6,125 nucleotides of DNA. Origin: Candidatus Mcinerneyibacteriota bacterium (GTDB taxonomy: Bacteria > AUK180 > JAQVHJ01). Location of the stretch: the NCBI GenBank assembly GCA_030630935.1, contig DAOVMD010000204.1, positions 1 to 6,125 on the forward strand. Reading direction: 5' to 3'. The notes below the pieces were generated by a model, which had not been told where the DNA came from, did not search any database, and saw only the letters and a program-made list of their open reading frames with translations. Shown one piece after another: positions 2,946 to 5,991 of the stretch. The position numbers and the translations under genes were made by a program. The stretch's first letter is position 1. Each line of letters starts with the position of its first letter.

Positions 2946-2962
2946 ATTTTCTCCTTTTGAAA

Positions 2963-2991
2963 ATTATAACATAGAATATAATTCTTTTCAA
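2963..2991 (-). promoter_or_regulatory. Sigma-70-type promoter of the RNA methyltransferase gene
   Basis: Read on the minus strand, TTGAAA (2991-2986) and TATAAT (2968-2963) are separated by 17 bp, and the spacer ends in TGT, an extended -10. Transcription should begin near 2956, so the mRNA would start at or just before the SD AAGGAG (2956-2951), with a leader of only about 11 nt. The repeat array begins 18 bp upstream of the -35 box, so it abuts the promoter. Confidence 0.8.
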
Positions 2992-3008
2992 GTATTAAAA
3001 AAACAATT

Positions 3009-3237
3009 GTTAAATTGTTTAAATGTTAATAAAACGTTCAAGTGCTAAAGATGTTTTGATAGTTAAATTGTTTAAATGTTAATAAAACGTTGAAGTGTTT
3101 AACAAGTTACAATAGTTCAATGGTTGAAATGTTTATAAAAACGTTAAAGTGTTATTGTAGAGACGTGCCATGGCACGTCTGATAGTTAAACTGTTAAAGT
3201 GTTTATGAAATGTTTAAGTGTTAAAAACGTTTAAGAG
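3009..3237. repeat. Array 1 of an AT-rich 53-bp repeat: four degenerate units
   Basis: Units begin at 3009, 3062, 3115 and 3185 with GTTAAATTG or close variants. The first three are spaced exactly 53 bp. The first 30 bases of units 1 and 2 are identical (3009-3038 and 3062-3091). A typical unit contains ATAAAACGTT around its middle and ends in GATA. Each unit splits into six blocks of about 8-11 bases resembling TTAAAGTG, so it may have grown from a shorter repeat. Unit 3 is interrupted by a palindrome, which shifts unit 4. No open frame runs through the array. The same repeat recurs at 4422-4544 and 4774-4826. Confidence 0.85.
3161..3180. repeat. Perfect 20-bp palindrome inside repeat array 1
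   Basis: AGACGTGCCATGGCACGTCT is its own reverse complement. It sits in the tail of the third 53-bp unit and is the most GC-rich element of the array. Preceding bases (TTGTAG) resemble the left flank of known GTAGAGACG...CGTCTCTAC palindromic repeats found in several phyla; the matching right flank is absent. It may be a small inserted, right-truncated palindromic element, but a protein-binding site is also possible. Confidence 0.75.
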
Positions 3238-4346: not shown

Positions 4347-4421
4347 TCTGCACTCTCCTTTTTTGAAATTCTAAATATAATTACGTGGAGAATTACAATA
4401 AATTTCAAAAGAAACAAGAGA

Positions 4422-4544
4422 GTTAAATGGTTAAAATGTTAAAATAATGTGTAAATGCTAAAGATGCTATGATAGTTAAATAGTTCAAGTGTTTATAAAA
4501 CGTTAAAGTGTTAAAAATGTGACGATAGTTTAATTGTTAAAGTG
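4422..4544. repeat. Array 2 of the 53-bp repeat: two full units and one partial
   Basis: Units start at 4422, 4475 and 4528, again spaced exactly 53 bp. They share the GTTAAAT start and GATA end with array 1; the second also has ATAAAACGTT. The third unit stops after 17 bases, where unrelated sequence begins (4545). The array lies about 75 bp upstream of the ARPP-1 start codon, just as array 1 lies just upstream of the methyltransferase promoter. Confidence 0.82.
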
Positions 4545-4773
4545 CTATAGTTTCGCTTCTCTCCACATTTATGATTTATGATTGAATATTTTTAATTGAT
4601 AATCCGATTTGCATTATGTATTATAATGCTTTAACTCAGAGCGATGTTTCTTAACATGAAATCTTTTAATTATCCTTAATTGCCAAATGAATGTAAATTC
4701 TATTCTGCTCTTTGTTCTCTGCTATTTGCTTTCTGCTAAAGCAACAGAGTTGCTTTAGCATGCTTTGCATGTG
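4545..4773. other. Non-coding segment interrupting the 53-bp repeat
   Basis: About 229 bp of sequence unlike the repeat, lying between the partial unit that ends at 4544 and the repeat fragment that resumes at 4774. It has no gene-like open frame and no terminal inverted repeat. It contains short TTTATGATT-type repeats near 4568-4582 and a strong hairpin near its right end. It may be inserted DNA, or older sequence over which repeat copies spread. Confidence 0.5.
4734..4760. repeat. 11-bp perfect hairpin
   Basis: TGCTAAAGCAA (4734-4744) pairs with TTGCTTTAGCA (4750-4760) around the 5-nt loop CAGAG. The bases just after, TGCTTTGCATG, partly repeat the right arm. Neither strand has a following T-run, so it looks like a REP-type palindrome or a structured RNA element rather than a terminator. 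Confidence 0.65.
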
Positions 4774-4826
4774 TTTAAGTGTTAAAAATGTGACGATAGT
4801 TTAATTGTTAAAGTGTTAATAAATTG
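4774..4826. repeat. Block 3 of the 53-bp repeat: two partial units
   Basis: The last 25 bases of one unit (4774-4798, ending GATA) run into the first 28 bases of another (4799-4826). The 39 bases 4777-4815 are identical to 4506-4544 in array 2, so this is a recent copy of that stretch and not an independently drifted one. Confidence 0.8.
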
Positions 4827-4953
4827 ATAGCACAATAACATTCAGTCGGTTTCAAGTAATCTCTTACAAGTCTCGTTCAAGTTCATGTTATTTTTTTTGT
4901 TCTCGTTAGTTTTTTAATAGGGAACCCTACGTGGTTCTTTACTCGTCAGTTCT

Positions 4954-5397: not shown

Positions 5398-5991
5398 ATG
5401 GGTCGAAGAAAAGAGAAACTCAATATATTAATTATCTGCCGGGAGAACTCTTGCCGTTCACAGATGGCAGAGGGTATTTTAAAAAGTCGGTTTCCCAAAA
5501 TGACAATTATCTCAGCAGGTATAGAACCAGCGAAAGTAGTAAACCCTTTGGCAGTTCAAGTAGTAAGTGAACTTGGAATTGATATTTCAAAATATTCCCC
5601 AAAATCAATTGAGTCAATCCCAGACATTGAATTTGACCTTGTATTTACAGTCTGTGATTCATTAAAAAACTGTATTGTTTTTTCCGGAGAAACGAAACAC
5701 TTAGTTCATATTCCATTTCCTGACCCTTCTAAAGTCAATGGCTCAAATACAGAACTCCAAAATAATTTCAGAGCAGTCCGTGATGAGATTAAAATAATTT
5801 TAATTGATATAATCTCATTATACCTTAAGTACAAAACCGTATATTATCGTTGTCCTATTTGTAATCTTCATTTTGACGATCTTGCAAATGCTAAATTATG
5901 CGAGGATTGGTGTTTAAACCATCCCCAAAAAAAGAATCTTAAAATTGTCTCTCAATCTCTCGAAGCAAAAACTCAATTTAAACTCTTTTAA
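5398..5991 (+). CDS. arsC: Thioredoxin-coupled arsenate reductase with a C-terminal Cys/His motif
   Basis: Residues 8-145 are a low-molecular-weight phosphatase-fold arsenate reductase, which reduces As(V) to As(III) in the cytoplasm. The P-loop is C14-RENSC-R20-S; the usual form is CTGNSCRS, so the R-E pair is unusual. The other redox cysteines are C86 and C92 (VCDSLKNC), as in the three-Cys thioredoxin-dependent type. The general acid is D109 in PFPDP, followed by FRAVRDEI (124-131). Known family members are about 130-140 residues; this one has 197. The extra part carries C152-x2-C155, C168-x3-C172 and H175, a probable metal or thiol-binding knuckle. Start: an in-frame TAA lies three codons upstream (5389-5391), so the ATG is forced. 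Alternatively it could act as a plain tyrosine phosphatase, but C86/C92 favour ArsC. No ars transporter or ArsR gene is in view. Confidence 0.87.
   Translation: MGRRKEKLNILIICRENSCRSQMAEGILKSRFPKMTIISAGIEPAKVVNPLAVQVVSELGIDISKYSPKSIESIPDIEFDLVFTVCDSLKNCIVFSGETKHLVHIPFPDPSKVNGSNTELQNNFRAVRDEIKIILIDIISLYLKYKTVYYRCPICNLHFDDLANAKLCEDWCLNHPQKKNLKIVSQSLEAKTQFKLF

Follow-up and report, generated by a model that had tools for sequence, protein, structure and literature searches.

Thioredoxin-type arsenate reductases (Trx-type ArsC), such as those of S. aureus pI258 and B. subtilis and the ArsC2 of Deinococcus indicus, transfer a disulfide through three cysteines, and the chemistry of this relay, which proceeds via C10, C82 and C89 in series, is established (PMC6193951). 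Among small cysteine-rich modules, the TRASH domain occurs as a free chaperone, in regulators and in archaeal copper clusters together with copper ATPases (PMC7830388, PMC3595675). Here, we describe a bacterial gene that joins an ArsC-like enzyme to a cysteine-rich finger, a domain combination that is undescribed as far as our searches reach; a literature search for ArsC with a zinc finger found nothing. The protein shares with Trx-type ArsC the low-molecular-weight (LMW) phosphatase fold, the CX5RS loop, the second and third redox cysteines and the general-acid aspartate. In contrast to these enzymes, it carries an extra C-terminal finger of 50 amino acids, the gap between its second and third redox cysteines (C86 and C92) is one residue shorter and its score lies under the cut-off of the corresponding model, TIGR02691.

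With moderate confidence, we favour a reading in which the protein is a Trx-type three-cysteine ArsC-like enzyme with a C-terminal accessory Cys4 zinc finger for metal or thiol docking or sensing. In such an enzyme, C14 would attack the oxyanion, C86 and C92 would pass the disulfide outward, and C152, C155, C168 and C172 would hold one Zn2+ in a permanent structural site. The finger would take no part in electron transfer; as an accessory module of metal(loid) or thiol homeostasis, it would dock the enzyme to a partner (a reductant, metallochaperone or efflux protein) or sense metal, a role modelled on the unrelated TRASH domain. Since the fusion is an enzyme with measurable activity, it offers a setting in which the role of the finger is directly testable.

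A fusion gene in two related genera

The window analysed here is a whole contig of 6,125 bases from a 3.16-Mb assembly of 471 contigs that is 80% complete. The fusion gene (5398..5991, + strand) starts with ATG and encodes 197 amino acids, comprising an ArsC/LMW-phosphatase-fold domain and a C-terminal Cys4 zinc-finger-like domain. The initial annotation had described this reading frame, whose key residues (the C14 loop, C86, C92, D109, C152, C155, C168, C172 and H175) are all present, and its view of a complete three-cysteine ArsC-like domain followed by a distinct extra domain is borne out by the Pfam match, by the AlphaFold2 folds and by retention of the tail in a second genome. The tail motif, C152-x2-C155-x3-F159-x8-C168-E-x-W-C172-x2-H175 (5851..5922, + strand), was located by motif scan; the window contains a single copy, and 200 dinucleotide-preserving shuffles gave none. 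Across 193 related genomes, it was found only in the source genome and in a relative from another genus of the same family (G001), and a reversed control pattern gave no match in the same set.

In G001, the tail sits on the same kind of protein with 49% identity over the tail, and its conservation in another genus argues against a frameshift or read-through artefact. The G001 gene is split over two contigs, C250 and C368, whose ends overlap by 249 nt at 98.4%. We considered a separate tail-less ArsC paralogue on C250 and rejected it, because this overlap indicates that assembly most likely broke a single gene into the two pieces. The joined gene would encode roughly 189 amino acids with the P-loop CKENSARS, both relay cysteines and the finger. 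In both genomes, the gene has a divergently oriented upstream ARPP-1 neighbour (PF20208; 3396..4346, − strand, in the window; L194:2-502, − strand, in G001), and the two ARPP-1 proteins are 65.6% identical over 125 amino acids. The recurrence of the fusion beside the same divergent ARPP-1 shows that the fusion is real, and it is probably older than the split between the two genera. ARPP-1 was not found in 14 control genomes, and a literature search for it returned nothing. In both intergenic regions flanking ARPP-1 (2956-3230 and 4396-4844), direct repeats of degenerate sequence recur every 53 nt.

Within the limits of a phylum sample of only 7 genomes, the fusion seems to be confined to one family. 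A comparison with ArsC homologues, suggested together with the initial annotation, recovered the tail with its four cysteines in G001 only; the 28 best ArsC homologues from 98 genomes are without it, so that conservation extends to this one relative. The class relatives G002, G003 and G006 have ArsC-like proteins that lack the tail, and one of these tail-less proteins sits behind an ArsR-like gene. No further ArsC fusion turned up when 386 related genomes and 45 genomes from another phylum were searched by profile, and none of the finger loci retrieved contains an ArsC. Searching with the tail alone by tblastn against plasmid and phage records gave chance-level matches only, and a single tail sequence or a two-row profile returned nothing significant outside the family from the related genomes, where detection worked only with a deep, 94-row profile. 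One profile match, in G006, was discarded as a 47-amino-acid frame in apparently non-coding DNA.

The ArsC-like domain and its putative substrate

The ArsC-like catalytic domain (residues 10–145; 5425..5832, + strand) is delimited by a Pfam and a structure match. Residues 10–132 match PF01451 above its cut-off (8.9e-17), and residues 11–134 match TIGR02691, the model of Trx-type ArsC, at 1.2e-25 with 90.2 bits, which is below the cut-off of 174.3. The nearest solved sequences are D. indicus ArsC2 and B. subtilis ArsC. An AlphaFold2 model of the full-length protein (pLDDT 94, pTM 0.87) places only a few residues between this domain and the finger, and its residues 1–145 superimpose on solved ArsC structures with Z scores of 19–22, including 22.2 for D. 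indicus ArsC2 (8p5n; 1.5 Å over 135 residues) and 20.1 for B. subtilis ArsC (1jl3).

C14, R20, S21, C86, C92 and D109 are conserved in both fusions. The P-loop, C14-R-E-N-S-C19-R20-S21 (5437..5460, + strand), had been singled out as altered, a claim that does not survive comparison with other members of the fold: it conforms to the normal CX5R(S) pattern, and homologues show variants such as CTHNSARS, CTENSSRS, CRANSARS and CSANSCRS, so that CRENSCRS is unremarkable. The redox pair C86…C92 (5653..5673, + strand) has five intervening residues in both fusions, against six in 23 of 25 comparable homologues and seven in the other two. The modified loop C[RK]ENSxRS and the relay shortened by one residue are lineage traits. 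D109-P110 (5722..5727, + strand) aligns with the general acid of the fold; G001 keeps the aspartate and has lost both the proline of this DP motif and the conserved arginine of RDEI, losses that may reflect a changed substrate.

By homology, C14, C86 and C92 correspond to C10, C82 and C89 of ArsC, which makes thiol-coupled oxyanion reduction likely. Arsenate is a putative and unproven substrate, to which a changed substrate is a serious rival; the surroundings of the fusion gene contain no ars operon, and a search of the 80%-complete genome gave no Acr3. An unlikely alternative takes this further and holds that the protein is an LMW phosphatase-like enzyme rather than a cellular arsenate reductase, with the finger serving in targeting, possibly in concert with the divergent ARPP-1. 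It could account for a TIGR02691 score of half the cut-off, the form of the P-loop, the shorter relay spacing, the degraded DP and RD motifs of G001, the lack of ars genes nearby and the adjacency of ARPP-1 conserved across two genera. However, both relay cysteines and D109 are conserved, and the nearest solved structure by sequence as well as by fold is ArsC2, which has been co-crystallised with arsenate.

The window also contains a same-strand cluster of thiol proteins (131-2123), consisting of OsmC, a 337-amino-acid protein that has thioredoxin domains with CPHC and CQDC motifs, a glutaredoxin (CSWC) and GroES. If the fusion protein is a Trx-type ArsC-like enzyme, as we prefer, these proteins are possible reductants for it.

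The finger family and its predicted zinc site

The fusion itself is narrow, and the finger family to which its tail belongs is the more interesting part. We defined this family by a DNA pattern of the cysteine core, which was scanned over 84,980 genomes and yielded at least 114 loci; the family pattern is CxxC-x3-[YF]-x8-CExWC-x5-C-N. Across L064-L179, it appears as a cysteine-rich finger of roughly 36 amino acids, CxxCGLxYx8CExWCxEHxSCNLEITxHA. Nearly all the matches listed are stand-alone proteins of 45–65 residues, and their hosts are mostly DPANN archaea and Patescibacteria, joined by Asgard and other archaea and, as a minor part, by a few other bacteria and two viral contigs. A pattern match at L083 was left out because it resembles a low-complexity chance match. 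The family is thus common in uncultured archaea and bacteria, and no Pfam or NCBIfam model reached its cut-off for it in the scores shown. The nearest model is DUF7128 (PF23447), whose profile finds 25 of the 94 family members and, at E 0.002 and 18.4 bits, the window tail, all below threshold. The window protein and its tail score 15.7–18.6 bits against a gathering score of 25.7, matches stay below 25.7 wherever a score is shown, and the match in the window protein is limited to the front part of the finger. One finger found by profile, L182 (G220), has an in-frame TGA in the matched stretch, which could mean a reassigned stop codon.

The window tail has the cysteine core C-x2-C-x12-C-E-x-W-C, which in other members is forced by the pattern, and the family profile, of which the window is one of 94 rows, finds the tail in its own genome at E 2.3e-14. 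Several positions are conserved though the pattern does not force them: L/F157, A165, S177, the cysteine and asparagine that follow, and I182. The cysteine of H-x-S-C-N is present in 90 of 92 members (~98%) and shifted by one residue in two more. In contrast, one residue is inserted after the finger core in both the window and G001, and the additional cysteine is lacking, H-x-S-C-N being replaced by HPQKKN and HNNKQN, respectively. On these grounds, both ArsC fusions appear to form a divergent branch of the family. In the window, the segment after the finger, PQKKNLKIVSQSLEAKTQFKLF (5923..5988, + strand), aligns with the family's x-S-C-N-L-E-I without its cysteine and forms short helices in the predicted structure.

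Modelled alone by AlphaFold2 with 94 family members, the tail adopts a hairpin and a helix (beta-beta-alpha; pLDDT 86). This finger (residues 150–187; 5845..5958, + strand) bears C152 and C155 on the hairpin and C168 and C172 on the helix (residues 162–174), and it superimposes on the C2H2 finger 7mc3 (Z 3.1; 1.5 Å over 30 residues). Zinc fingers make up the top Foldseek matches and nearly all the structural matches listed, with scores that are weak one by one, as expected at 30 residues. Profile matches to PRDM9 and other multi-finger PDB entries were set aside, being many short sub-matches summed rather than homology. Together with Y150 and F159, the spacing of the ligands (C-x2-C-x12-C-x3-C) is that of classical fingers with cysteine replacing histidine. 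The tail thus shares with the classical C2H2 finger the beta-beta-alpha fold, the x2-x12-x3 spacing and the aromatics before and after CxxC, whereas it has four cysteines in place of Cys2His2, is a single finger and shows no sign of DNA binding.

Fold and spacing make zinc binding by the tail likely, in keeping with one suggestion of the initial annotation, and the structure prediction it called for puts the tail cysteines at the zinc-ligand positions of a C2H2-like finger. Among small CPxCG proteins with four cysteines, some lack zinc or carry a different metal, and AlphaFold2 does not distinguish the zinc binders (PMC11241148). Five tail ligands had been proposed; the four cysteines are retained as the core, and H175 drops out, since its position holds tyrosine or asparagine in four of the eight fingers that the profile, and not the pattern, recovered.

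The tail had further been suggested to hold the As(III) product or to serve as an internal electron relay, and we consider it very improbable that its cysteines do either. A cysteine-rich tail on an enzyme that would produce arsenite invites the idea, and As(III) can in general attack C4 fingers. However, fold and spacing would put all four cysteines in one zinc site, so that holding As(III) would require displacement of zinc; H175 is not conserved; and neither fusion keeps a free conserved cysteine in its tail. For this last reason, the tail is unlikely to relay electrons; the four cysteines occupy classical-finger zinc positions, and the additional family cysteine is absent from both fusions.

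Fusions and neighbours of the finger

The units with a CExWC..H pattern that the initial annotation linked to heavy-metal-related proteins do exist, as the family scan, the fusions to ATPases and a MerR regulator and the neighbouring genes all indicate. Metal pumps, metal regulators and membrane proteins of thiol redox are recurrent partners of the finger, either fused to it or encoded next to it. It lies in the N-terminal region of heavy-metal P-type ATPases (L076:1147-3543, + strand; L161:623-3088, − strand), at the C terminus of a MerR-family regulator of Ktedonobacterales (L132:407-1033, − strand), possibly a metal-sensing variant, and on the N terminus of a SAM methyltransferase (L186:841-1668, − strand) that stands beside HMBD and RND-efflux genes and might methylate metal(loid)s. 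In L161, the finger immediately precedes an HMBD domain. In Nitrososphaerales, a finger is in frame with a tRNA intron (splicing) endonuclease (L081:5012-5779, − strand), an arrangement that could be a genuine fusion or result from the choice of start site. Among 118 same-strand neighbours of the finger, DsbD_TM occurs 11 times, E1-E2_ATPase 6, ArsR HTH_5 5 and HMA 4; these counts are modest. In a control set of 118 distant genes from these loci, the largest family count is 2, and DsbD, ATPase and HMA are not among the families reaching it.

This usage resembles that of TRASH (CopM, CopT/CopR and copper ATPase clusters), in that both occur as a small free protein, at the C terminus of a metal regulator and in the context of P-type ATPases. 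The sequence motif differs, and we claim no homology: TRASH has C-x19-22-C-x3-C, whereas in the window the final C-x3-C follows C155 after 12 residues and C152 after 15.

It is possible, though doubtful, that the finger is a structural add-on only, contributing stability to the enzyme or its dimer but nothing to metal(loid) handling or the choice of partner. The extra conserved cysteine of the stand-alone fingers is absent in both fusions, as if a metal role had been dropped and the zinc core kept, and the pTM of the full-length model suggests a fixed position of the finger on the ArsC body. However, the other ArsC homologues examined do without such a domain, and the family is otherwise linked to metal genes. 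We retain the accessory metal/thiol module as the preferred reading, in which the finger plausibly helps the enzyme to handle metals or thiols. A bolder proposal, which we think improbable, makes the finger an arsenite- or metal-responsive switch, in which As(III) or a thiophilic metal would displace zinc and alter activity or partner binding; were it true, the finger family of DPANN and Patescibacteria would be a general heavy-metal or thiol sensing module like TRASH.

The finger is also fused to several membrane proteins. Three genomes (L133, L138 and L147) encode membrane proteins of roughly 550 amino acids that carry CPVCG segments and a finger at the N terminus; a scan of L138 gave almost no Pfam match, and two of the three hosts are of the Patescibacteria type.
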